NCBI RefSeq assembly: GCF_000215085.1
Contig: NC_015589.1
Coordinates: forward strand, 868,001 to 932,000
From: Desulforamulus ruminis DSM 2154
GTDB taxonomy: Bacteria > Bacillota > Desulfotomaculia > Desulfotomaculales > Desulfotomaculaceae
Length of the DNA: 64,000 nt
Direction of reading: 5' to 3'
The notes below the pieces were generated by a model. That model ran no database searches, was not told the origin of the DNA, and saw only the letters and a list, made by a program, of their open reading frames with translations. A program made the translations under genes and the position numbers. Below are positions 36,209-58,006 of the stretch, piece by piece (positions within the stretch are counted from its first letter, which is position 1; each line of letters starts with the position of its first letter).

Positions 36209-36436
36209 ATGATCACGTTAAAGGATGTTAAACCAGGCCAAACGGCTGTTGTGGACAGTGTTAAAGTGACTGGCCAGGCCAGAGGGCGGTTTATGGCCAT
36301 GGGAATTATGAAAGGGGCTAGGTTAAAGGTTATTAAAGTTGCACCTTTGGGTGACCCCATAGAGGTATTGGTCAAGTCTTATAATCTGTCCTTTCGTAAG
36401 GCTGAAGCGGAACAGATTATTGTATCTTTGGGATAA
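36209..36436 (+). CDS. feoA: FeoA family protein, second copy
   Basis: This 75-residue protein has the canonical FeoA features: AVVDSVKVTGQARGRFMAMGI then KVAPLGDPIEVLVKSYNLSFRKAEAEQI. The ATG follows AAAAGGGGGCT and the gene is 22 bases after the first copy and 15 bases before feoB. It is the standard FeoB partner in Fe(II) uptake. Confidence 0.93.
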   Translation: MITLKDVKPGQTAVVDSVKVTGQARGRFMAMGIMKGARLKVIKVAPLGDPIEVLVKSYNLSFRKAEAEQIIVSLG

Positions 36437-36451
36437 GGAGGGATTTGCTAA

Positions 36452-38347
36452 ATGTCAGCACTTAATGTAGCTTTAACAGGTAACCCCAACACCGGTAAGT
36501 CCACCATTTTTAACGCTTTAACCGGTGCCAGACAGCACATTGGCAACTGGCCGGGTGTTACAGTAGATAAAAAAGTAGGGCAACTGAACAAAGGCAATCA
36601 GAAAATTAATATTATTGATTTGCCGGGCACCTACAGCCTCAGCGCTTATTCAATTGAAGAAAGAATTGTTAAAGACTATCTGACCGCTGAAAAACCGGAT
36701 GTGGTAGTCAATGTAGTGGATGCCTCCAATATCGAGCGTAACCTATACCTGACGGTCCAATTATTGGAGATGGGCGTGCCCACCCTGGTCAATCTGAACA
36801 TGATGGATGAGGCCAAAAGCAAAGGCTATGAGATTAATCTGGGGGTTTTGAGTCAGCAACTGGGAGCACCGGTTATTTCCTCGGTAGCCACCAGCAGAAG
36901 TGGTCTGCAGCAGCTCATTGATTCTTTGGATCCCTCTTTTCTGGCACAGACCAAGGCGGCTGACAGTTCTCTGCTGACCGAACATCTGGCACAAATAGAA
37001 GCCATTAAAAAATCCGGCAAGGGCGCCGACTTGATTGAGGAAGAAATTATTGAAGCCCGCTATGAATTTATTAATAAGGTTTTAGATCAGGCTTTAGTAG
37101 CTAAAGAAGGCGTTCAGTCCTGGAGTGATAAACTGGATAACTTAATAACCAACCGGGTGCTGGGAATTCCTATTTTTATTGCTATTATGTATTTAATGTT
37201 TCAGATAACCTTTAGCTGGGTTGGTCAGCCCCTGGCCGATCTGGTGGACGGATTTATTGGAGAGACTTTGACCGGCTGGGTTGACGGAGGGCTGGCAGCG
37301 GCCGGAGCGGCTGAATGGCTGCATTCCCTGGTAATCGACGGTATTATTGCCGGGGTTGGTGGTGTACTGGTCTTTGTACCCTTAATTTTTACTCTGTTTT
37401 TAGTAATCAGCTTTTTGGATGGAACCGGCTACATGGCCAGGGTTGCCTTTATTATGGACCGGGCCATGCGTAGAATTGGCTTATCCGGAAAGGCGTTTCT
37501 GCCTATGTTGATTGGCTTTGGTTGCGGTGTGCCGGCTGTTATGGGTGCCAGGGCGCTGGATACCGATAGGGACCGCAAAATGGCCGTTTTATTGACTCCC
37601 TTCATGTCCTGCGGCGCCAGACTTCCGGTATACGCCTTATTTGCCGCTTTGTTCTTCCCGGGTCGGGAAAGTGTGGTTGTTCTTTCTCTTTATTTGCTTG
37701 GCATCGCCATGGCCATCATCATGGGCCTGATCTTTAAAAACACCTATTTCAAGGGAGACGCCGAGCCCTTTTTGATGGAACTACCGCCTTACCGTATACC
37801 TACCTTAAAAACGGTCTTGCTGCAAACCTGGGAAAAAGGAAAGGGTTTTCTGGTTAAAGCAGGTACCATTATTTTCAGTATGTCGGTGGTCATTTGGATT
37901 CTGAGCAGTTATAACTTTTCCGGCGCGGCTGAAATTCAAGACAGTTTGCTGGCTAGCATCGGCCACGTCATTGCTCCGCTCTTTGCCTTCCATGGTTTTG
38001 GTTCCTGGGAGACCGGAGTGGCTGTACTGACCGGTATTTTAGCGAAGGAAGCCGTGGTTTCCACCCTGGGTGTAATTTACGGAGTCGCTGAACTGGCGGA
38101 AGAAGCGGTGGATGCCGCATCACAATTGCAGGCTGCTTTGGGCGCAAGCTTTACCAGCCTTTCCGCCTATGCTTTTCTGGTATTCACTTTGTTGTACACT
38201 CCTTGCGCCGCTGCCCTGGGAACCATTAAAAAAGAACTGAACTCATGGAAATGGACTTTATTTGCGGCGGGTTATACCTTTGCACTGGCCTGGATTGTTT
38301 CTCTGCTGGTTTACCGGGTCGGCCTGTTACTGGGATTGGGTGGTTAG
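36452..38347 (+). CDS. feoB: Ferrous iron transporter FeoB
   Basis: This full-length 631-residue protein has the N-terminal G domain: G1 GNPNTGKST at 10-18, G3 DLPGTYSLSAYS near 55-66 and G4 NMMDEA near 115. A helical spacer follows, then the membrane part with Gate motifs (FGCGVPAVMGARAL near 353-366, and CGARLPVYALF near 387-397). It imports Fe(II) across the cytoplasmic membrane. The ATG follows AAGGAGGG. It belongs to the Fur-box operon begun by the soluble MCP. Confidence 0.96.
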   Translation: MSALNVALTGNPNTGKSTIFNALTGARQHIGNWPGVTVDKKVGQLNKGNQKINIIDLPGTYSLSAYSIEERIVKDYLTAEKPDVVVNVVDASNIERNLYLTVQLLEMGVPTLVNLNMMDEAKSKGYEINLGVLSQQLGAPVISSVATSRSGLQQLIDSLDPSFLAQTKAADSSLLTEHLAQIEAIKKSGKGADLIEEEIIEARYEFINKVLDQALVAKEGVQSWSDKLDNLITNRVLGIPIFIAIMYLMFQITFSWVGQPLADLVDGFIGETLTGWVDGGLAAAGAAEWLHSLVIDGIIAGVGGVLVFVPLIFTLFLVISFLDGTGYMARVAFIMDRAMRRIGLSGKAFLPMLIGFGCGVPAVMGARALDTDRDRKMAVLLTPFMSCGARLPVYALFAALFFPGRESVVVLSLYLLGIAMAIIMGLIFKNTYFKGDAEPFLMELPPYRIPTLKTVLLQTWEKGKGFLVKAGTIIFSMSVVIWILSSYNFSGAAEIQDSLLASIGHVIAPLFAFHGFGSWETGVAVLTGILAKEAVVSTLGVIYGVAELAEEAVDAASQLQAALGASFTSLSAYAFLVFTLLYTPCAAALGTIKKELNSWKWTLFAAGYTFALAWIVSLLVYRVGLLLGLGG

Positions 38348-38380
38348 GTTTGCCAAGAGCTTGAGTTGGGAGGGATGAAT

Positions 38381-38587
38381 ATGGAAAACATTACCGGATT
38401 GGTCGTCACCGCTGTCCTGGCTGCCGGGATTGGTTTCCTAACCCTGCGGGGATTTCGCCGGGAAGTATCCAGCATAAAAAATGGCAGTTGTTGTGGTTCC
38501 GATAGTTGTGGTTGCGGTGGCAGTTGCAGCAGTCAATGCAGCCACGATGAAACCCGGCAGGACCGCACAAAAACGCAAGAATCCTAA
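38381..38587 (+). CDS. FeoB-associated Cys-rich membrane protein
   Basis: This 68-residue protein has one N-terminal membrane segment (GLVVTAVLAAGIGFLTL) and a Cys-rich tail (GSCCGSDSCGCGGSCSSQC) of the kind described for FeoB-associated Cys-rich proteins (PF12669). The tail has seven closely spaced Cys in total and may bind iron at the exit of FeoB. I prefer the ATG at 38381 because GGGAGGG lies 8 bases upstream; the ATG at 38375 is an alternative. It is the last gene of the feo operon. Confidence 0.85.
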   Translation: MENITGLVVTAVLAAGIGFLTLRGFRREVSSIKNGSCCGSDSCGCGGSCSSQCSHDETRQDRTKTQES

Positions 38588-38604: not shown

Positions 38605-38665
38605 GTCTGAAGAAAGTTGAGGCCAGCTTTGGCCAGCACTTTCTTCAGACAAGGGGGCTTTTTGT
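38605..38665 (+). terminator. Terminator of the MCP-feo operon
   Basis: GTCTGAAGAAAGT (38605-38617) pairs with ACTTTCTTCAGAC (38638-38650), enclosing a second stem GGCCA/TGGCC, with a CTTTTT tract shortly after. Confidence 0.8.
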
Positions 38666-38692
38666 TATCTAAGAAAGATTAGAGCGAGGACC

Positions 38693-38709
38693 AATCATAA
38701 TTAATGATT
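38693..38709 (+). promoter_or_regulatory. Fur-like dyad before the small ORF and fez-like operon
   Basis: AATCAT-N5-ATGATT is a perfect dyad with GATTATAATGA overlapping its right side, 18 bases before the ATG of a 44-codon gene. It matches the NAT-rich Fur pattern seen at the other iron genes here. Confidence 0.5.
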
Positions 38710-38727
38710 ATAATGAGGTGAGAAAGA

Positions 38728-38862
38728 ATGGCGGATCTTAAGGAGGCGGTGGCTAGACTATTATTAATTAATCATCATATAAATTCTCAACTGCAATCAT
38801 TTAATCATGTCTTGGAAAAATATATTCATTACCTTGAGGACAAAAGCAAAAATTGGTATTAA
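38728..38862 (+). CDS. Small protein of unknown function, iron-island context
   Basis: This 44-residue frame starts with ATG after GAGGTGAGAAAGA, a good ribosome binding site. It encodes a probably helical, soluble peptide (ADLKEAVARLLLINHHINSQ, then FNHVLEKYIHYLEDKSKNWY). It has a Fur-like dyad upstream and ends 47 bases before the next Fur box. I do not recognise a family. It may be the first gene of the membrane operon that follows or a short regulatory peptide. Confidence 0.55.
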   Translation: MADLKEAVARLLLINHHINSQLQSFNHVLEKYIHYLEDKSKNWY

Positions 38863-38908
38863 AATATAAAAAAGTCTTTCCAGTTTGCCTTACAGTTGGA
38901 TAATAAGA

Positions 38909-38933
38909 AATGATAATGGTAATTATTATCATT
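38909..38933 (+). promoter_or_regulatory. Fur box before the fez-like operon
   Basis: AATGATAAT-N7-ATTATCATT is a perfect 9-bp dyad. It lies where an apparent ATG start (38910) would be, so that start is not used; translation begins at TTG 38958. Confidence 0.75.
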
Positions 38934-38957
38934 ATTGGTGAAGGGGTGGTTACTCCA

Positions 38958-39452
38958 TTGTTTAAACCTTCAAAATCTAAACTGGCTCTTGGACTGCTGG
39001 GGTCCCTGTTTTTTTGCCTGGCCTCCCTGCCTTTCAGCAGCAAAGGGCACCGGGCAGCAGGTTTGATTTTCTCCGGGTTTTCTTTTATGCACATGCATCA
39101 GTACAGAAAAGGTTTGTATCATCATCTGGGGAGGGAGCGTGACGGTATCAAAAATTTCCTGGAAGAGATCGGTGGAACCGTAAAGAAGAAAATGTTCCGG
39201 CACCTTACCGGTGTTCAAGTTTTGCATTATATTCCTGGCCGGGTAAGAATTTATTCCCGGCAAATCCACAATAACCAGACCAAAGCTCAGGATTTGAGCA
39301 ACTATCTAGCGGATATCAAGGAAATACAGAATTTTACGGTAAATCATCAAACAGGTTCCGTTCTCATTGAATATTCTCCCGAAGCTGTGCTTGGTAATAA
39401 ATTTCTGCAGGAAATAGAGGGACTTATTGCAAGTAAATATGACAGGAGGTAA
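38958..39452 (+). CDS. HMA-like membrane-associated protein with Pro-Gly-Arg motif, fez-like operon gene 1
   Basis: This 164-residue protein starts with TTG, 8 bases after AAGGGGTGG. Residues 8-45 form a hydrophobic hairpin (LALGLLGSLFFCLASLPF, then AAGLIFSGFSFMHMH). The second half is a degenerate heavy-metal-associated fold: LHYIPGRVRIYSRQIHNNQT near 93-112, then IQNFTVNHQTGSVLIEYSPE. No Cys-x-x-Cys metal site is present. An I/L-P-G-R-x-R motif before an HMA-like fold recurs in the last large gene of this operon. Such proteins accompany the P1B-6 ATPase in ferrosome gene clusters, so a role in an iron-storing membrane compartment is inferred. Confidence 0.6.
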   Translation: MFKPSKSKLALGLLGSLFFCLASLPFSSKGHRAAGLIFSGFSFMHMHQYRKGLYHHLGRERDGIKNFLEEIGGTVKKKMFRHLTGVQVLHYIPGRVRIYSRQIHNNQTKAQDLSNYLADIKEIQNFTVNHQTGSVLIEYSPEAVLGNKFLQEIEGLIASKYDRR

Positions 39453-39455
39453 TCT

Positions 39456-39959
39456 ATGAGTTATATGGCAGGCTTAGCGGTTGGCACTTTGATGGCCGAG
39501 CAACTGCGTAAGGCTGGCGGCAACGGAGGTATAAAGCTGGTTCATCGTACTGCCGGCCGCAGGCGTTATCATGATCCCAGGCTCAAGTGGGACGATCAAT
39601 ATGCTAAAAAGGTAGAGGGTTATTTTAAAACGGTACAAGGGGTTAACCGTTTCACCATCAATCGGATTACCGGTTCTCTGGTAATCAATTATCATTGTTC
39701 AGAGGAATTCGTAAACCACTTGATGAAAGACAAGATCTTTTTTCCGCGGGCAGGTAAACTAAGGAAAAGAATCCAGGGCATGTTTGGCCATATGAATGTC
39801 GGTGTATATAAAAGAACGGATGGATTTCTGGATTTTCCTACTTCCTTGGCGGGAGTTTTTTTAATCCTGGGTTTAAGGAAAGCCTTGCGGTTAAAACAGT
39901 GGCCCAGCGGTCCACAAATGATGTGGTGGTCTTATAATCTGATGAAAAAGGCACATTAA
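39456..39959 (+). CDS. HMA-like protein with C-terminal hydrophobic segment, fez-like operon gene 2
   Basis: This 167-residue protein starts 3 bases after the previous stop. Residues 25-90 repeat the fold of its neighbour: IKLVHRTAGRRRYHDPRLKW, with AGRRR in place of PGRVR, then FTINRITGSLVINYHCSEE, again without a Cys-x-x-Cys. Residues 125-145 contain a hydrophobic stretch (FPTSLAGVFLILGL), and the protein ends with basic and aromatic residues. The shared module with genes 1 and 4 suggests an assembly of related membrane-shaping or iron-handling proteins. Confidence 0.6.
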   Translation: MSYMAGLAVGTLMAEQLRKAGGNGGIKLVHRTAGRRRYHDPRLKWDDQYAKKVEGYFKTVQGVNRFTINRITGSLVINYHCSEEFVNHLMKDKIFFPRAGKLRKRIQGMFGHMNVGVYKRTDGFLDFPTSLAGVFLILGLRKALRLKQWPSGPQMMWWSYNLMKKAH

Positions 39960-39978
39960 AATGGTGGAAGGGAATTAC

Positions 39979-42081
39979 ATGAGGCACAGCAAACTCTGCT
40001 TTAGGCTAAGTAAGCCCATGTCCAACCGGCAAAAAGCTTTGTTGGAAGCCCGACTGAGATCTTTTCAGGGAGTGTCCAGCGCTTACATTGATGAGCAAGG
40101 AAATTTACGGGTGGTATGTTCTCCGGCGGCCGGTGGACAAGTTAGCAATTTTATTAAAAGGCATAGGCAGGATCAAAGGGGTCCCATTACTTACCAATCA
40201 GAGCTAAAAGAAGAAATTTCCAGAAATAGAAACGGCTTGATCACCTCCGCCGTTAGTCTAGTGGGTTTGGAGTTGGTCAAAAGAATTCATCCTGCAGCTT
40301 ATGGCGGAATGTATCTAGCCAGAAGCCTTTTGGTGCTGTTTATTTCCAGGTCCTTTCTTAAAAGCGGCCTAAAGAGTTTGGTTACCGATTTACAGCCTAA
40401 CGCAGATACCTTGACGGCTACTGCCGTAGCTGCCTCGGTGCTGGGGGGAAGACCGGAATCCAGTCTGACCATTATTTTGCTTTCCAATGCAGCAGAACTT
40501 CTGACCGGCTATACCGCTGAAAAAACCCGCAGCCATATCTCAAGAATGTTAAATCTGGATCAGCAACTGGCCTGGCGGGTTGATGCCGAAGGCCGCGAGG
40601 AAAAGGTTCCTGTGGAGTCACTGCGATCCGGAGACACTGTGTGTGTACATACAGGAGAGAAAATTTCTGTAGACGGCAGGGTTACCGATGGCCGGGCGGC
40701 TGTAGACCAATCTTCTATCACCGGTGAATATATGCCGGTGGAAAAGGTGGCAGGGGACGGGGTCTATGCCGGGACCATTGTTAAAAACGGTTTTTTAGAA
40801 ATTACAGTGGAAAAGGTCGGGGACCAGACGGCTCTGGCCCGAATTGTTCATTTAGTGGAAGAGGCCCATACCCGGAAAGCACCGGTACAAAATTTTGCCG
40901 ATAAGATTTCCACCATGTTGGTCCCCTTGTCTTTTGTAACCGCTGCTTTGGTATACGGGGTAACCAAAAACTGGCAGCGGGTGCTCAACATGTTGTTTAT
41001 TGATTATTCCTGCGGTTTAAAACTATCCACTTCCACTGCCATTTCTGCTGCCATTGGACGGGCAGCCAGCCGTGGGGTGCTTATTAAAGGCGGCAACTAT
41101 GTGGAGTCCCTGGCCAACATTGACACCGTGGTGCTGGATAAAACCGGTACGATAACCGCAGGGAGACCGGTGGTTATGGCGGTGGATACCACCGGGGAGG
41201 TCAGTGAGCAGGAAGTCCTGCTTCTGGCAGCTGCGGCTGAGTATCATTCGACCCATCCTCTGGCAACGGCTATTCTGGCCCGGGTCAAGGAGGCCGGCTG
41301 GCCTATTCCTCAGCACAACAGTACCGAAACGGTGGTTGGCAGGGGAATTAAAGCGTCTCTGCCGGGCGATGACACGGTGGGCGGCGGCTGGGTATTGGTA
41401 GGCAGCAGGACCTTCATGGCCGAAAATAAGATTGACTGTGCATCTTTTCATTTTGCGGAGACCCGACACCGGGAACTGGGGCATAACGTGGTTTATGTGG
41501 CCAGAGAAAACCAGACCCTGGGGGTTTTAGCCATCAGCGATCCCATTCGTCCTAAAATGAAAAAGGCCATTAATCGGTTAAGACGTTTGGGCATTGACGA
41601 AGTGGTTATGCTCACCGGGGACAGTAAGAATGTTGCCATGCAAACGGCAACCCATCTGGGAATTGATTCCTATCAAGCGGAGGTTATGCCTCAGGACAAG
41701 GCCCTGCTGGTGGCTAAAATGCAGCGGGGTTCCCAGGTGATGATGATTGGTGACGGCATTAACGATGCTCCGGCTCTGGCTTTTGCCGATGTAGGGGTGG
41801 CGATGGGGGGCAGCCGGACCGATGTGGCGGTGGAGGCAGCGGATATCACCATTAATATCGACGATCCTCTGGCGGTGCCGGAAACCTTGGGCCTGGCCAA
41901 GCAGACCATGGGCATTATCCGCCAGAATTTTGCCGCGACCATCACCATCAATACGGTTGCTATTTTGCTGGGGGCCATGGGAAGAATTAACCCGGTAGTA
42001 TCTGCCTTAATTCACAACACAGCCACCATCGGGGTGGTATTAAACAGTGCCAGGATATTGATAAAGGGGAGTAGCAGATGA
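39979..42081 (+). CDS. fezB: P1B-type metal ATPase with Ser-Cys-Gly membrane motif (FezB/P1B-6-like)
   Basis: This 700-residue P-type ATPase has a degenerate HMA-like N-terminus, membrane segments near 80-135, the TGEYMPVEK actuator motif near 245, phosphorylation site DKTGTIT (Asp387), HP motif STHPLA, and GDGINDAPAL near 590. Before Asp387, the metal-site helix reads DYSCGLKLSTSTAI (Cys345), lacking the usual Cys-Pro-Cys or Ser-Pro-Cys. One Cys without Pro and a Fur-box operon fit the P1B-6 group that loads iron into ferrosomes. ATG 39979 follows GGAAGGG; ATG 39961 is possible. The gene name is provisional. Confidence 0.7.
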   Translation: MRHSKLCFRLSKPMSNRQKALLEARLRSFQGVSSAYIDEQGNLRVVCSPAAGGQVSNFIKRHRQDQRGPITYQSELKEEISRNRNGLITSAVSLVGLELVKRIHPAAYGGMYLARSLLVLFISRSFLKSGLKSLVTDLQPNADTLTATAVAASVLGGRPESSLTIILLSNAAELLTGYTAEKTRSHISRMLNLDQQLAWRVDAEGREEKVPVESLRSGDTVCVHTGEKISVDGRVTDGRAAVDQSSITGEYMPVEKVAGDGVYAGTIVKNGFLEITVEKVGDQTALARIVHLVEEAHTRKAPVQNFADKISTMLVPLSFVTAALVYGVTKNWQRVLNMLFIDYSCGLKLSTSTAISAAIGRAASRGVLIKGGNYVESLANIDTVVLDKTGTITAGRPVVMAVDTTGEVSEQEVLLLAAAAEYHSTHPLATAILARVKEAGWPIPQHNSTETVVGRGIKASLPGDDTVGGGWVLVGSRTFMAENKIDCASFHFAETRHRELGHNVVYVARENQTLGVLAISDPIRPKMKKAINRLRRLGIDEVVMLTGDSKNVAMQTATHLGIDSYQAEVMPQDKALLVAKMQRGSQVMMIGDGINDAPALAFADVGVAMGGSRTDVAVEAADITINIDDPLAVPETLGLAKQTMGIIRQNFAATITINTVAILLGAMGRINPVVSALIHNTATIGVVLNSARILIKGSSR

Positions 42082-42680
42082 GCGGTAAAGGTTACGAAAT
42101 CAGGCATTCCTTACCCGGCAGATTAAGATTGGAGTTCCAAGGGACTTTCAGATTGAACAGCATCGGTGAAAAGCTGGGAAAATTGCCGGGGGTTGCTCTA
42201 GTGAGGATAAACCCTGTTATTAAAACGCTGCTGATCTGTTATGATCCTCAACAAATCGATCAAAACACCATTTTGAGGAATATTCCTGCACAGCCACCGG
42301 TACTGAACCATGGTTTCGGATCGGGCATGGATGTTAATAAAAAAGATCTCTTCTGGTCCCTGCTGGCCGGGGCTTCACTGCTGGTGGCTCATGCCTCCAG
42401 AAGAGCGGTAACCCAGGCGGGGACTGCTGGAAATGGGGTTCATTATTTGGAATATCTGGCGGCTGGTATTACCGGATATGCTGTTTTAACCCACCGGGAT
42501 GTGGTCAGCTGCGGCAATCGATCCCTGCACCTGGATACCTTAGCCGGGTTGTTCAGTATTCTTTCTTTAGAAAGTGACCGGGCGTTGATGGGCATGTTTG
42601 TTACCTGGCTGCTCAACTTTATTGAGATTGTTTTTGGTTGGCCTCAATATAACACCAAGTGTGCAACATTAACAAACTAA
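42078..42680 (+). CDS. HMA-like/Pro-Gly-Arg membrane protein, fez-like operon gene 4
   Basis: This 200-residue protein overlaps the ATPase gene by ATGA. Residues 7-72 are an HMA-like domain with IRHSLPGRLRLEFQG at the start, LGKLPGVALVRINPVIKTLL, and no Cys-x-x-Cys. Residues 90-190 hold three or four hydrophobic segments (DLFWSLLAGASLLVAHASRR; LEYLAAGITGYAVLT; LMGMFVTWLLNFIEIVFGW). The combination of a PGR-HMA domain with a membrane bundle parallels ATPase-associated proteins of fez clusters. The function is inferred from context. Confidence 0.6.
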   Translation: MSGKGYEIRHSLPGRLRLEFQGTFRLNSIGEKLGKLPGVALVRINPVIKTLLICYDPQQIDQNTILRNIPAQPPVLNHGFGSGMDVNKKDLFWSLLAGASLLVAHASRRAVTQAGTAGNGVHYLEYLAAGITGYAVLTHRDVVSCGNRSLHLDTLAGLFSILSLESDRALMGMFVTWLLNFIEIVFGWPQYNTKCATLTN

Positions 42681-42698
42681 TTTAAGGGGGTGAAAAAT

Positions 42699-42914
42699 AT
42701 GTTTACGAGAACAGATTTCTGGATTGGCCTGGGGGTTGGTTTGGTAGCTGGGATACTAGGATATAAGACTTTTACTGAAAACAAGGAAAAGTTCAGCAAC
42801 CTCGTACCAGTACCAAAGGAAGAGGCTGGGGATATTCAACTGGAAGAGTTGATGAAACAGAAAGAACGCCTGGAGGATTTAATTGCTGAAAAACAAGTTG
42901 CTGCTGCCTCCTAA
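42699..42914 (+). CDS. Small single-span membrane protein, last gene of the fez-like operon
   Basis: This 71-residue protein has a membrane segment at residues 6-24 (FWIGLGVGLVAGILGYKTF) followed by an acidic, helical tail (EELMKQKERLEDLIAEKQ), like YtxH-type small proteins. The ATG at 42699 follows AAGGGGGTGA; a GTG at 42690 is in frame. It ends 25 bases before the operon terminator. I do not recognise a specific family. Confidence 0.6.
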   Translation: MFTRTDFWIGLGVGLVAGILGYKTFTENKEKFSNLVPVPKEEAGDIQLEELMKQKERLEDLIAEKQVAAAS

Positions 42915-42939
42915 AGGATGATAGCAGTGGATACTGTAG

Positions 42940-42979
42940 TCCCGGTTTCGTCTGTAATGGACCTGCCGGGAATTTTTTA
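42940..42979 (+). terminator. Terminator of the fez-like operon
   Basis: TCCCGG (42940-42945) pairs with CCGGGA (42966-42971) and is followed by ATTTTTTAT. Confidence 0.65.
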
Positions 42980-43085: not shown

Positions 43086-43128
43086 AATAATATCAATAAT
43101 GATAATCATTATCATTATTGATATTATT
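43086..43128. promoter_or_regulatory. 43-bp perfect palindrome made of overlapping Fur boxes
   Basis: The left arm (43086-43105) and right arm (43109-43128) are exact reverse complements of 20 bases around a 3-base centre. It is built from TGATAAT/ATTATCA words, so several 7-1-7 Fur motifs overlap. It lies 87 bases before a coiled-coil protein gene. Confidence 0.85.
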
Positions 43129-43214
43129 AATAATTGGGTTTTAAAAGTGAAACAATACGGATTGTTCAGAGATGATGTTACTTATCGGTTATAAATGGTA
43201 AGGGGATGAAATCA

Positions 43215-43484
43215 ATGCCATTACAGACAGCAATAACCCAATCCTTTGCCAGCCAAAGGGATGGAAAGGGCGATTCTTTTAATCCCTTTGCTGAACAGGA
43301 GCGGCAGAAATTACAACGGGAGAATAAAAAATTAAGAGATCTCCTGAATATAGTCAAGGATGATCTTGCTTTTTTTGAAGCCAACATCAAACTTTTGGAA
43401 GAGGAGAGGGTAACTTTACTGCTTAGAATTGACGAGTTGCAGACCAGATTAAGGAATTTTGAGGCGGAATGGATATTGGTTTAG
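43215..43484 (+). CDS. Small coiled-coil protein, paralogue of the DUF2325 protein N-terminus
   Basis: This 89-residue protein is mostly one coiled coil: QERQKLQRENKKLRDLLNIV, then LAFFEANIKLLEEERVTLLL and RIDELQTRLRNFE. The last part is closely similar to the coiled coil of the DUF2325 protein at 57434 (KRLEDENLTLLARIDELQTS). It lacks the C-terminal DUF2325 domain. I chose ATG 43215 because AAGGGGATG lies 7 bases upstream; ATG 43206 overlaps that site. A giant Fur-type palindrome precedes it. It may form hetero-oligomers with its longer paralogue. Confidence 0.65.
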   Translation: MPLQTAITQSFASQRDGKGDSFNPFAEQERQKLQRENKKLRDLLNIVKDDLAFFEANIKLLEEERVTLLLRIDELQTRLRNFEAEWILV

Positions 43485-43537: not shown

Positions 43538-43552
43538 CATACGATGATAATG

Positions 43553-43720
43553 CTTTAAGGTGCCCTTTTATAATCAAAAGGGATAATAGGGAATCGGGTT
43601 GAAATCCCGAGCAGCACCCACTACTGTAACTCAGACGAAATCCGGTATGGCCACTGCCGTGCATACGGTGGGAAGGTAAGGAGAGTAGGATGATGGGAAG
43701 CCAGGAGACCTGCCTTAAAA
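43553..43720 (+). promoter_or_regulatory. Cobalamin riboswitch controlling metE
   Basis: The outer stem pairs CTTTAAGG with CCTTAAAAG. Conserved blocks appear in order: AAGGTGCCC, GGGAATCGGGTTGAAATCCC, GAGCAGCACCC, ACTACTGTAACT and GAAGCCAGGAGACCTGCCTT, which includes the B12 box. MetE is the B12-independent methionine synthase, so repression by cobalamin is expected. Confidence 0.95.
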
Positions 43721-43810
43721 GCAAAAATCTCAATCTTTGGGAATGGGGATAGAGACGATTTGTGTATAATTGTGTCTATTTCCTCCATTAATACTGAGGA
43801 GGAAGGGAAA

Positions 43811-47134: not shown

Positions 47135-47149
47135 TGATAATGATTATTA
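47135..47149 (+). promoter_or_regulatory. Fur box before the decayed feoAB genes
   Basis: TGATAAT-G-ATTATTA matches the 7-1-7 Fur pattern with one mismatch. It lies 31 bases before the remnant feoA start site. Confidence 0.65.
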
Positions 47150-47179
47150 TTATTGGTTATGCGGAGGGGGGGATACGCC

Positions 47180-50996: not shown

Positions 50997-51068
50997 AAGG
51001 GTAAAAAGGGGCAGAATGGATCAACCCTCTTAACCGCCTACCTCTCTTCGGGAGGAACAGTGGATTTT

Positions 51069-51223
51069 CCAAGGCAGGTCTCCTGACTTGCGGGTCGTGG
51101 CCGATTTCAACCTTCCCGGATGATTCCAGTGGTGTTTCAGAAATCTGCTCTCCGCATACAGTGGCCGGACCGTTCGGGATTTGCACCCGATTCCCTATTA
51201 AACCCCCTCCGGGGGTGCCCTGG
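51069..51223 (-). promoter_or_regulatory. Cobalamin riboswitch controlling cbiK-cbiL
   Basis: Read on the minus strand: AGGGCACCCCCGGAGGGGG, TAGGGAATCGGGTGCAAATC, CGGTCCGGCCACTGTATGCG, and AAGTCAGGAGACCTGCCTTG with the B12 box. All conserved blocks are in order. It is followed by an intrinsic terminator before cbiK. Confidence 0.95.
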
Positions 51224-51338
51224 AAGAAAATATGATTTAATTTACTATAAAATAGTATCATCTTTAGGGGAGGGTGTCCATAAAAATCCAGCCTGCGGTG
51301 CCTTTGTGCCTGGAACACAAGAATATAAGCGGAGGGTA
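51224..51338. promoter_or_regulatory. Divergent promoter region between two cobalamin riboswitches
   Basis: A perfect dyad TACTAT-AAA-ATAGTA (51243-51257) lies where the -10 region of the minus-strand riboswitch transcript would be. No gene is present. Confidence 0.4.
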
Positions 51339-51368: not shown

Positions 51369-51392
51369 ATGGATGAACAATCAAACATCTTC

Positions 51393-51546
51393 TGCAGGTG
51401 CCCTTTGGGGAGAATAGGGAATCAGGTGCAAATCCTGAGCGGTCCCGCCACTGTAAACGGAGAGTCTGCATCAGTAAGCCACTGGCCCGGAGGCTGGGAA
51501 GGTGGATGCAAGACCATGACCCGTGAGTCAGGAGACCTGCCTGTGG
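51393..51546 (+). promoter_or_regulatory. Cobalamin riboswitch controlling cobT
   Basis: Conserved blocks in order: GCAGGTGCCC, GAATAGGGAATCAGGTGCAA, CGGTCCCGCCACTGTAAACG, AAGCCACTGG, GGCTGGGAAGG and GAGTCAGGAGACCTGCCTGT. The order and spacing match the B12 riboswitch, here on the plus strand and divergent from the cbiK copy. Confidence 0.96.
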
Positions 51547-51572
51547 AAGTCCGCCGGGGATGATGGTAAAAT

Positions 51573-53409: not shown

Positions 53410-54788
53410 ACTAAGCCCAGCAGCCTTACGGTCTGGTTTACGATGAAACAAACGATACAGGCAACGCTTAAGGGAAGAAGGCCGGCCAGAAGGGTCCACT
53501 TCATACTTCCGGATTCCTTTTTAATGGTCCAGAGGGTGGTGCCGCAGGGATAATGTAAAAGGGAGAAAAGCATCATGCAAAGAGCGGTCAACCAGGTCCA
53601 ACCCTGTTGAACCACAAAGAGATTGTATAAATCCTCCAGACTATTCAGTTCAGTCATAGAACCGGTGGCCAAATAACTCATAATCAGGATGGGAAGGACA
53701 ATTTCATTGGCCGGAAGACCCAGTATAAAGGCCATCAAAATAAAACCATCCAGACCGATCCATTGGGCCAAGGGGTTTAACCACTGGGCGCAAAGGGTCA
53801 AAACGCTTAAATCACCTACATAGATATTGGCCAGCAGCCAGGTAATGGCACCTGCCGGAATAGCAACAATAATGGCTCGTCTCAATACGAAGAGGGTCCG
53901 GTCGAAAAGGGAACGTACGATAACACGCCCTATCTGGGGTTTACGATAGGGAGGGAGTTCCAGGGTAAAGGAGGAAGGAACGCCCTTTAACAAGGTTTTG
54001 GAAAGAATCCATGAAACCGCCAGGGTTACGGCAATTCCCAAAAGGATGGCACCGACCACAATGGCCGTGCTGCCAAAGCTGCCGCCCATACTCAGAACCA
54101 TAATACCGGCCAGGGCGATTAGGGTTGGGTAACGGCCGTTGCAGGGGACAAAGTTGTTGGTCAGCATGGCGATCATGCGCTCCCGGGGAGAATCGATGAT
54201 TCTGCAGGCGATGATACCGGCAGCATTACAACCAAAGCCCATGCTCATGGTAAGGGACTGCTTGCCGTGGGCTCCCGCCTTCTTAAACAAGCGGTCCAGG
54301 TTAAAGGCAACCCTGGGCAGATATCCGAAATCTTCCAATAAAGTAAAGCACGGAAAAAAGATGGCCATTGGCGGCAGCATAACCGAGACAACCCACGCCA
54401 AGCAGCGGTAAATTCCTTCCACAAAAAAACCGTGAACCCAAACCGGTGTGTGGAGCCAGTGGCATAGATCCGTAAGGCGATCCTGCCCCCAGAAAAGTAC
54501 TGAAGCGAGCATTGCCGAGAGAACATTGGCCCCGGACACGGTGAACCAAAAGATCACACTTAATAAAATTAACATGGAAGCGAAGCCATAAACCTTGGAA
54601 GTTAGAATATCATCCAATTTTTTATCCCAATCGATGCCGGGTTTTTCTTTTTGAGTGACTACCTGGCCGGCAATGTCTTCGGCTGTACGGTAAAGATGGC
54701 CGACAATGACGTCGTTCATATTTTGGGTATCCAGGGTATCGACTTCCTTTAGAATGGCTTTCAGGCAGGCGGAGCAGGACTGACTCAT
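53406..54788 (-). CDS. feoB: FeoB membrane permease part (split FeoB, C-terminal gene)
   Basis: This 460-residue protein corresponds to the helical spacer and membrane half of FeoB. An N-terminal Cys-rich stretch (SQSCSACLK) and HLYRTAEDIAGQVV precede KKLDDILTSKVYGFASMLIL. Gate-type motifs are MGFGCNAAGIIACRIIDSPR near 210-229 and FVPCNGRYPTLIAL near 241. A second module follows with LELPPYRKPQIGRVI. There is no G domain. The ATG overlaps the stop of the G-domain gene as ATGA. The two together equal one FeoB of about 700 residues. It imports Fe(II), or possibly Mn(II), given the DtxR neighbour. Confidence 0.88.
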   Translation of the reverse strand: MSQSCSACLKAILKEVDTLDTQNMNDVIVGHLYRTAEDIAGQVVTQKEKPGIDWDKKLDDILTSKVYGFASMLILLSVIFWFTVSGANVLSAMLASVLFWGQDRLTDLCHWLHTPVWVHGFFVEGIYRCLAWVVSVMLPPMAIFFPCFTLLEDFGYLPRVAFNLDRLFKKAGAHGKQSLTMSMGFGCNAAGIIACRIIDSPRERMIAMLTNNFVPCNGRYPTLIALAGIMVLSMGGSFGSTAIVVGAILLGIAVTLAVSWILSKTLLKGVPSSFTLELPPYRKPQIGRVIVRSLFDRTLFVLRRAIIVAIPAGAITWLLANIYVGDLSVLTLCAQWLNPLAQWIGLDGFILMAFILGLPANEIVLPILIMSYLATGSMTELNSLEDLYNLFVVQQGWTWLTALCMMLFSLLHYPCGTTLWTIKKESGSMKWTLLAGLLPLSVACIVCFIVNQTVRLLGLV

Positions 54789-55525
54789 GCCCAGAGTTCA
54801 CCTCCAACTTTCATTTTTGAGTCTTGCTGGCCGGGCAGGCATTTTTCCAGGGCAGCAATCACAATGGGGTCTTTATCCAGCAGTCTTAAAGCTAACCAGC
54901 GGCTGTTATAGGCATCTCCCACCAATTTCTGGATTTGGGGTTGAATCTTTTGAATGGCTTCCTCCACCCGGGAGTCATATTGCACCAGGCGGGGGGTAGG
55001 CTTAAGCTGTCCGCCGGCCACGTCGGAAACTGTTTTAACTAATTGATCAAGGCCTGCGCCTGCTCTGGCGGAGGTTGGAACCACCGGGACACCCAACTGG
55101 ACGGCTAATTCCTTAATATTGATAATAATATTTTTTCTTTTGGCCTCATCCATTAAATTTACACAAACAACAACCTTGGAAGTAATCTCCAGGACCTGTA
55201 ATACCAGGTTGAGATTTCTTTCCAGACAAGTGGCATCCACCACCACCACGGTGGTATCCGGTTTGCCAAAACACAGGTAGTCCCTGGCCACCTGTTCTTC
55301 AACGGAATTGGCCAGAAGAGAGTAGGTACCCGGAAGGTCAACGAGGTTGTAAACCTGCCCTTGGTTGATATATTTCCCTTCAGCCCGCAACACGGTTTTG
55401 CCGGGCCAGTTGCCGGTGTGTTGGTTCAGGCCGGTTAAGGCATTAAACACCGTACTTTTTCCCGTGTTGGGATTTCCTGCCAGTGCAATCACCGTTTCTG
55501 TTCTGGATAAATGATTTCCCTCCAT
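54785..55525 (-). CDS. feoB: FeoB G-protein part (split FeoB, N-terminal gene)
   Basis: This 246-residue GTPase has G1 GNPNTGKST near residues 17-25, TGNWPGKTV (switch I) near 38-46, G3 DLPGTYSLLANSVEEQVARD near 60-79 and G4 NLMDEAKRK near 119. A helical spacer follows to the end, with no membrane segment. In usual FeoB this domain is fused to the permease; here a separate start follows GAGGGGG. No frameshift is needed to explain the split, and homologous split pairs are known in Firmicutes. It follows feoA by 3 bases. Confidence 0.9.
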   Translation of the reverse strand: MEGNHLSRTETVIALAGNPNTGKSTVFNALTGLNQHTGNWPGKTVLRAEGKYINQGQVYNLVDLPGTYSLLANSVEEQVARDYLCFGKPDTTVVVVDATCLERNLNLVLQVLEITSKVVVCVNLMDEAKRKNIIINIKELAVQLGVPVVPTSARAGAGLDQLVKTVSDVAGGQLKPTPRLVQYDSRVEEAIQKIQPQIQKLVGDAYNSRWLALRLLDKDPIVIAALEKCLPGQQDSKMKVGGELWA

Positions 55526-55527
55526 TT

Positions 55528-55791
55528 TTAATCCCCCTCGTAGCTTACCAATATTTGGCTGCCTTCTTCCTCCCGAAAGGCGATAACGGTTCCCCGTATT
55601 TTATAGGCTTTAGGATCTCCGGCCGGACTAATCCTAAGGGTCTCTACCCGGGTTCCCGGAACCAATCCCAGATCCATTAGCCTTCGTCGAACCATTCCCT
55701 GGGCTTGAATGGAACTGACAGTGGCGGATTGGCCAACCGGCAGTTCATAAAGAGTCATCATGCTTTCCGGCATGAAACCATATTTTTTCAT
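55528..55791 (-). CDS. feoA: FeoA family protein of the split-feoB operon
   Basis: This 87-residue protein has MTLYELPVGQSATVSSIQAQ then RRRLMDLGLVPGTRVETLRI and SPAGDPKAYKIRGTVIAFRE, all canonical FeoA elements. The ATG follows AAGGAGG. It is the first gene of a feoA-feoB(G)-feoB(membrane) operon on the minus strand. Upstream are dyads similar to DtxR/IdeR boxes rather than Fur boxes, unlike the plus-strand feo operon. Confidence 0.92.
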   Translation of the reverse strand: MKKYGFMPESMMTLYELPVGQSATVSSIQAQGMVRRRLMDLGLVPGTRVETLRISPAGDPKAYKIRGTVIAFREEEGSQILVSYEGD

Positions 55792-57433: not shown

Positions 57434-58006
57434 ATGTCTTTAGAAACAGTTAAGTCCACGGCTTCCGGTAGACAGACGGTAAAAAAATTACAGCAGGAGA
57501 ATGAGGAACTGCTGGCGGTCCTTGCCGCTGTTGATGAAGAATTGAGAGAATATCAGGACAGGATTAAACGGCTGGAAGATGAAAACCTCACCTTATTGGC
57601 CCGCATTGACGAACTGCAGACCTCCATCCGGCACTTGAAAATCCAACGATACTGCGGTTGCAACGACCGGGTGGAACCGGTGGAAACCTGTGATGAAAAC
57701 TGCTGTCACTATGATCTCTGCGCTAAAAGGATATTAATTGTGGGCGGCATCACCAAAATTAAGGCTACCTATAAAAGTCTCATTGAACAATGGGGCGGAG
57801 AGTTTGATTATCTGGATGGTTACATGAAGGGCGGCGAAAGGGTTTTGGACAATAAGATCAGAAAAAGCGATCTGGTGCTTTGCCCGGTGGATTGCAACAG
57901 TCACAATGCCTGTTTAAGTGTTAAGAAGCTCTGTAAAAAACACGGCAAGCCCTTTAAAATGCTAACCTCCTCCAGCATTTCCGGTATCACTCAGGCCATT
58001 CGTTAG
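57434..58006 (+). CDS. Coiled-coil DUF2325 protein with cysteine cluster
   Basis: This 190-residue protein has a coiled coil at about residues 12-72 (QENEELLAVLAAVDEELREY; LEDENLTLLARIDELQTS), then a Cys cluster near 74-97 (YCGCNDR, ETCDENCCHYDLCAK), then a DUF2325 domain: RILIVGGITKIKATYKSLIE, DLVLCPVDCNSHNACLSVKK, and KPFKMLTSSSISGITQAI. The reaction is unknown. Eleven or so Cys suggest metal or Fe-S binding. A Fur box precedes it, and its coiled coil is shared with the small protein at 43215. The ATG follows AAGGGAGATGAGATC. Confidence 0.8.
   Translation: MSLETVKSTASGRQTVKKLQQENEELLAVLAAVDEELREYQDRIKRLEDENLTLLARIDELQTSIRHLKIQRYCGCNDRVEPVETCDENCCHYDLCAKRILIVGGITKIKATYKSLIEQWGGEFDYLDGYMKGGERVLDNKIRKSDLVLCPVDCNSHNACLSVKKLCKKHGKPFKMLTSSSISGITQAIR

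Follow-up and report, generated by a model that had tools for sequence, protein, structure and literature searches.

A 64,000-nucleotide stretch of the Desulforamulus ruminis DSM 2154 chromosome (NC_015589.1, positions 868,001 to 932,000; the window, numbered from its first letter) carries, downstream of ferrous iron uptake (feo) genes, a five-gene operon centred on a FezB-like P1B-6 ATPase, which on balance we read as encoding a variant ferrosome-type system of iron sequestration that Fur represses and that is made when iron is low. To our knowledge, ferrosomes are among the few known bacterial organelles, and the genetic evidence for them comes from a handful of species. Desulfotomaculum (Desulforamulus) ruminis DL-T is described as a sulfate reducer of the rumen (PMC3569383); the genome is a single contig of 3,969,014 bases. 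A previous sequence-only reading of the window had proposed an iron organelle at this locus, and its claims are taken up below together with the results that bear on them.

Operon structure and link to iron

Open reading frame (ORF) calls and Pfam searches place the gene order feoA-feoA-feoB-Cys-rich gene at 35.9-38.6 kb, with the five-gene operon downstream in the order HMA_2, HMA_2, P1B ATPase, HMA_2 and small membrane protein (Table 1). The strong hairpin behind the Cys-rich gene sets the feo operon apart from the five-gene operon. The tight packing described in the sequence-only reading was borne out by the ORF coordinates, ORF2 (stop 39452) and ORF3 (39456) being separated by 3 bases and the ATPase and ORF5 overlapping in an ATGA at 42078-42081; a probable terminator at the end of the operon was likewise found, as a hairpin followed by AUUUUUU. 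For ORF2, the start annotated at 38910 was rejected because it falls inside the Fur box, and was moved to TTG 38958, which fits the relatives. Comparison with relatives also makes ATG 39979 the more likely start of the ATPase (700 aa), rather than position 39961 of the longest ORF, and ATG 42699 that of the small protein (71 aa).

A good Fur box, TGGTAATTATTATCA, is located at 38917-38931, directly upstream of ORF2. Four sites with at most one mismatch to TGATAATNATTATCA occur in the 64-kb window, against 0.02 expected, and the box of the operon has counterparts at the same place in a same-genus genome (G007; exact match, L043:4321) and in a same-family genome (G009; one mismatch, L042:7805). 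Four Fur-family genes are present in the D. ruminis genome. Of the Fur-like boxes previously placed over the operon, the one before ORF2 is strong, whereas the site upstream of a 44-aa ORF is weak (more than three mismatches). This short ORF, suggested earlier as a possible part of the operon, falls outside the conserved core: its counterpart, 28% identical and in the same place, was seen only in G007. It has no Pfam match, and its two predicted helices are reminiscent of small Spo0E-like proteins.

The association with iron uptake extends beyond D. ruminis, as 10 of 49 loci have feoA or feoB no further than 5 kb from the pump, compared with 2 among 57 control pump loci (p = 0.011), a count that includes related, non-independent loci and corresponds to a smaller effective number of approximately 8 lineages. 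The upstream Fur box and the feo neighbours support the view that the operon is tied to iron.

Table 1. Features of the five-gene operon and its surroundings (window coordinates)
Feature	Position	Strand	Evidence
feoA and feoB, ferrous iron uptake	36209..38347	+	ORFs, Pfam; same neighbours in G007 (L043)
FeoB-associated Cys-rich protein	38366-38587	+	ORFs, Pfam; same neighbours in G007 (L043)
Probable feo operon terminator, strong hairpin 38605-38665 with T-rich tail	38605..38672	+	RNA fold -30.1 kcal/mol, z -3.6
44-aa ORF, helical by prediction, good ribosome site	38728..38862	+	positional counterpart in G007
Predicted Fur box of operon	38911..38931	+	1 mismatch to TGATAATNATTATCA; counterparts in G007 and G009
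ORF2: N-terminal transmembrane hairpin and HMA_2 domain with IPGRVR	38958..39452	+	PF19991, E 4e-14
ORF3: HMA_2 domain and C-terminal hydrophobic stretch, end PSGPQMMWWSY	39456..39959	+	PF19991, E 1e-24
FezB-like P1B-6 ATPase, 700 aa, TM4 IDYSCGLKLST, TM6 IHNTAT	39979..42081	+	ATPase domains, motifs, trees
ORF5: HMA_2 domain and about four helices	42078..42680	+	PF19991, E 2e-9; collinear with pump N-halves; weak ATP7B structural match
Small one-helix membrane protein, C-terminal LEELxxQKERLEDLIAEK motif	42699..42914	+	family model; YtxH-like relation
Probable intrinsic terminator	42940..42977	+	7-bp outer stem, then AUUUUUU; RNA fold z -1.9
Perfect Fur box before next gene (43206-43484, coiled coil)	43100..43114	+	0 mismatches; separate transcription unit

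The pump

In agreement with the sequence-only reading, which had noted a central P1B ATPase lacking the usual metal motif, the fourth transmembrane helix (TM4) of the pump contains IDYSCGLKLST in place of the CPC of classic P1B pumps, while the sixth (TM6) contains IHNTAT (H-N-x-T) near residue 685. The HN motif in TM6 is a mark of P1B6 pumps (PMC9374683), and the window ATPase combines it with a TM4 devoid of CPC, as is characteristic of the P1B-6 group. In a comparison of 37 pumps, Asp in TM4 (position 348 in the long ORF) is present in every FezB-like row (100%) and in no other row (0%), and Thr in TM6 in 100% versus 29%. Assignment of the ATPase to the P1B-6/FezB kind is thus supported by its motifs.

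For comparison, genomes G450-G457 were taken as Clostridioides on the basis of an exact tpi primer site. Two of them (G450 and G454) encode four P-type ATPases each, namely a Cu pump, a Zn-type pump, Kdp and one with the TM4 sequence VDFSCALKLS. The last adjoins a membrane protein of the DUF6110 family (E 1.5e-22), which matches the published FezA-FezB pair of Clostridioides, for which Fur repression has been reported (PMC12574912), and it was accordingly adopted as the Clostridioides FezB candidate.

In a tree built from all alignment columns, the pumps with the FezB signature fall on one side of a branch supported at 99/96 and recovered in 98% of bootstraps. On that side, the clade of the window pump (SCG clade; 100/99) is sister to a clade uniting the Clostridioides FezB candidate with a relative from a six-gene operon (100/99). 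A second, quick tree with named references agrees; these were plasmid relatives, standing in for the fez sequences of Shewanella, Rhodopseudomonas and D. magneticus. Without the TM4 and TM6 motif columns, the SCG and FezB clades each stay at 100/100. The window pump also stands apart from the classic P1B pumps (100/99). Trees and motifs together place the pump outside the Cu, Zn and Cd exporters, with the ion-site signature of FezB; a plain exporter of this sort was ruled out by the missing CPC and by the tree position.

A pump for Mn, Co, Zn or Ni, replacing or balancing Fe in iron-starved cells with iron acting as the regulator only, would be compatible with the surroundings of the related operon on Priestia megaterium plasmid pBM400, where a permease and a TIGR03943 protein are encoded nearby. 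Permease/TIGR03943 pairs are Zur-regulated elsewhere, and the one on pBM400 may be as well. We nevertheless regard such a pump as very unlikely, as the feo genes, the Fur boxes and the FezB-like motifs indicate iron and the window pump lies outside both the Zn/Cd and the Cu clades.

Partner proteins

The Pfam scores of ORF2, ORF3 and ORF5 against HMA_2 are 53, 88 and 38 bits (cut-off 30) and none of the three contains CxxC, which confirms the earlier description of three HMA-like proteins without this motif. The accompanying statement that two of them start with PGRxR holds for ORF5, where the motif is near the N-terminus; in ORF2 it comes after the transmembrane hairpin, and in ORF3 the sequence is AGRRR.

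ORF5 was modelled with ATPase sequences removed, since a model including them would be circular; the model aligns end-to-end with the N-terminal half of HMA_2 pumps (for example, positions 9-193 to residues 5-217 in a CPC pump, E 1e-11). The AlphaFold prediction, of low confidence (mean pLDDT 65), consists of roughly four helices and a domain of ferredoxin-like fold; its first match in the PDB is ATP7B (E 0.003), and the best matches are copper P1B pumps, none passing E 0.001, so that this low-confidence structural resemblance is only supportive. ORF5 is probably a front half-pump devoid of the actuator, phosphorylation and nucleotide domains.

The profile of the small protein matches that of the YtxH-like protein of six-gene P1B-6 operons with an hhalign probability of 92.5% (E 5e-7), in line with the YtxH-like protein that the sequence-only reading had listed in the operon. 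None of approximately 200 unrelated small membrane ORFs exceeded 12.4% (family members, duplicates and a few ORFs from other pump loci had been set aside by hand from this control set), while four YtxH-like proteins reached 55-80% and Clostridioides FezA 22%. The profiles are good evidence that the small protein and the six-gene YtxH-like protein are a shared kind of partner, and weak evidence for a relationship to Clostridioides FezA.

The build of the small protein invites the main rival explanation, an efflux platform in the plasma membrane of the PacL-CtpC kind, in which the small protein clusters the pump and Fe(II) or another divalent metal is expelled with no organelle being formed. CtpC itself has been described as P1B6-like and works with PacL1, which has a single helix and a tail rich in Glu (PMC9374683), a build to which the small protein conforms; moreover, the best alignments of ORF5 are to HMA_2 pumps with CPC, a CtpV-like one among them. 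However, the window pump has no CPC in TM4, Pfam detects no DUF1490 in the operon, and the tails contain no DLHDHDH-like motif, the small protein thus lacking a His/Asp metal-binding tail. Furthermore, a Fur box adjoining Fe uptake genes predicts production in low iron, a timing unsuited to detoxification. We consider efflux of this kind unlikely.

Distribution of the operon family

Homologues of ORF2, ORF3 and the small protein were identified in approximately 40 loci of four phyla (Bacillota, Fusobacteriota, Bacteroidota and Pseudomonadota). Among 60 relatives, only G007 and G009 besides D. ruminis itself carry the operon (66-68% identity), so its distribution is patchy. It is present in 16 of 398 genomes of a phylum sample, in which its pumps (166-182 bits) are separated by a score gap from other pumps (106-124 bits), and, within the family to which Peptostreptococcus anaerobius belongs, in 14 of 71 genomes. 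Named records include Priestia megaterium pBM400, Fusobacterium vincentii, Turicibacter, Megasphaera, Selenomonas, Bacteroidales and Succinivibrionaceae. ORF2 homologues occur in nearly all complete loci and ORF3 homologues in all or nearly all; those of ORF5 occur in all complete loci except the Selenomonas/Megasphaera-like and Succinivibrionaceae ones, and the family model detects the small protein in every clade locus uncut by a contig end. The SCG clade points to a conserved gene set in common gut, mouth and rumen anaerobes and on a plasmid of the aerobic P. megaterium.

On pBM400 the whole five-gene operon adjoins an IS256-type transposase gene, suggesting a route for its spread.

Proposed function and points against it

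Compartment, metal, direction of transport and the role of each partner are what we infer in the following scheme. When iron is scarce, Fur would leave the box at 38911 and the operon would be transcribed alongside the neighbouring feo genes, FeoB importing Fe(II). The P1B-6 pump, with the TM4 Asp-x-x-Cys (D348 and C351) and the TM6 His-Asn as putative ligands, would carry Fe(II) through a membrane to a storage compartment, to be filled once iron is available again. Lacking CxxC, the HMA_2 proteins may be partners anchored in the membrane and not chaperones of the Cu type; ORF5 is perhaps a non-catalytic half-pump that pairs with pumps or spaces them. The small helix-plus-coil protein could, by analogy with PacL for CtpC, cluster the pumps or shape the membrane. 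Low-iron induction beside ferrous uptake, a FezB-like pump and clustering partners would together amount to a preparation for storing returning iron.

Several observations weigh against a ferrosome-type system. Once the motif columns are removed, the union of the SCG and FezB clades is recovered in only 24% of bootstraps (approximately unbiased test, AU p = 0.42, not rejected). In these trees, the sister position of the SCG clade to FezB is dependent on the TM4/TM6 motif columns themselves, and the clade is a separate deep lineage, not nested in the clade of Clostridioides FezB and the six-gene proteobacterial type. This loss reduces the claim of FezB membership: the position outside Cu/Zn/Cd exporters and the FezB motifs stand, while the union with FezB is obtained only with the motif columns. 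The Clostridioides FezB candidate was itself assigned from genome content. The FezA and FezC families expected beside the pump did not appear, as neither DUF6110 nor DUF4405 was found in the operon by Pfam; nor was DUF6110 found in the D. ruminis genome, a weak negative given that the control genomes were equally silent. The small protein was rejected as a DUF6110 FezA, the direct profile comparison being negligible (3.8%) and the links indirect only. Finally, feo linkage is seen in a minority of the loci, which are not independent.

Tentatively, the family can be viewed as a second class of ferrosome-forming system, distinct from the fez types described so far, in which an SCG-type pump would be joined by a half-pump with no catalytic function (ORF5) and two further HMA_2 membrane proteins, and which would have spread by horizontal transfer through four phyla; its hosts would be gut, oral and rumen anaerobes (Fusobacterium, Peptostreptococcus, Megasphaera, Selenomonas, Turicibacter, Bacteroidales and Succinivibrionaceae) and, plasmid-borne, an aerobic soil bacillus.

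Other features of the window and genome

The coiled-coil gene at 43206-43484 is related to another at 57434-58003 (45% over 58 residues), each being located behind a Fur box (43100 and 57368). The latter gene combines the coiled coil with DUF2325, a part that the former does not have; an Arcobacter plasmid likewise has DUF2325-like genes in the vicinity of its P1B-6 operon. Three cobalamin riboswitches were identified, one (43542-43731) upstream of a MetE-like methionine synthase gene at 43760 and the other two (51056-51237 and 51379-51558) forming a divergent pair. A Fur-box cluster at 47135-47155 is situated about 0.5 kb upstream of a chemoreceptor gene (47685, dCache-HAMP-MCP). On the minus strand, 54788-55791 holds a second feoA and a FeoB ORF of 245 aa that corresponds to the N-terminal part only and is either shortened or split. 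Elsewhere in the genome (1064000-1080000), a divergent pair of HMA_2 pumps, one P1B6-like (ACPCA and HN) and the other CtpI-like (1539 aa), is conserved in G004 and G009; these further chromosomal HMA_2 genes, a CPC-type pump and a CtpI-like protein, are different systems.

Comparison with known systems

The six-gene P1B-6 operons of Azospirillum (plasmid p3; six genes including HMA2 and YtxH), Vibrio THAF190c and Arcobacter, which we take to be the described six-gene fez type, resemble the window operon in possessing an HN-motif pump, PGRxR HMA_2 partners and a YtxH-like ELKERLED protein. They differ in having other extra proteins, a YtxH gene upstream of the pump, no ORF3 or ORF5, and a pump from another clade. 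Two further proteobacterial P1B-6 pumps (L233 of G534 and L236 of G601; TM4 VDFSCGIKIST) have no recognised partner genes alongside, and the first of them has feoA-feoB directly upstream.

The Clostridioides fezAB pair resembles the window operon in its pump motifs (D-F-S-C in TM4, where the window pump has D-Y-S-C, and HN in TM6) and in a one-helix small membrane partner; its reported Fur repression would parallel the Fur control predicted here. Its pump, however, is only 32% identical, has SCA rather than SCG in TM4 and belongs to a separate clade, and the pair comprises two genes with DUF6110, as opposed to three HMA_2 proteins and the LEDLIAEK protein. DUF6110 also adjoins the pump in a Deinococcus plasmid relative. 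Mycobacterial PacL-CtpC is alike in combining an HMA_2-type P1B6-like pump bearing HN with a one-helix Glu-rich partner, and differs in the CPC of TM4, in DUF1490 with its metal-binding tail and in conferring zinc resistance (PMC9374683). The FezC cytochrome (DUF4405), part of the Desulfovibrio ferrosome gene set (PMC10979944), is without counterpart in the window operon; DUF4405 was not seen beside the Clostridioides pair either, so FezC is not universal. In the literature covered, which did not extend to the founding ferrosome papers, no paper was found that connects ferrosomes with Desulfotomaculum or HMA2, and Fusobacterium appeared only in connection with other topics.

FezB is said, in a 2022 abstract, to be spread over diverse bacteria and archaea. 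The window operon might on that account be an ordinary fez operon, belonging, though unlisted, to the type that Grant et al. (2022) or Pi et al. (2023) described; this we find doubtful, given its separate clade (100/99) and a conserved gene set unlike both the DUF6110 pair and the six-gene sets. The sequence-only reading had held that the gene set differs from those of described ferrosome operons, and the comparison with these two types upholds it. A P1B-6 pump and small membrane proteins are joined in one operon, as expected of a ferrosome-type locus, and it is because its gene set and clade are unlike every P1B-6 operon type examined that we rate it as a variant. Common to pump operons of this kind are a P1B-6 pump, HMA_2 partners and a small helix-plus-coil protein, DUF6110 and DUF4405 being optional, and this division indicates which proteins are of first interest for the building of the compartment.

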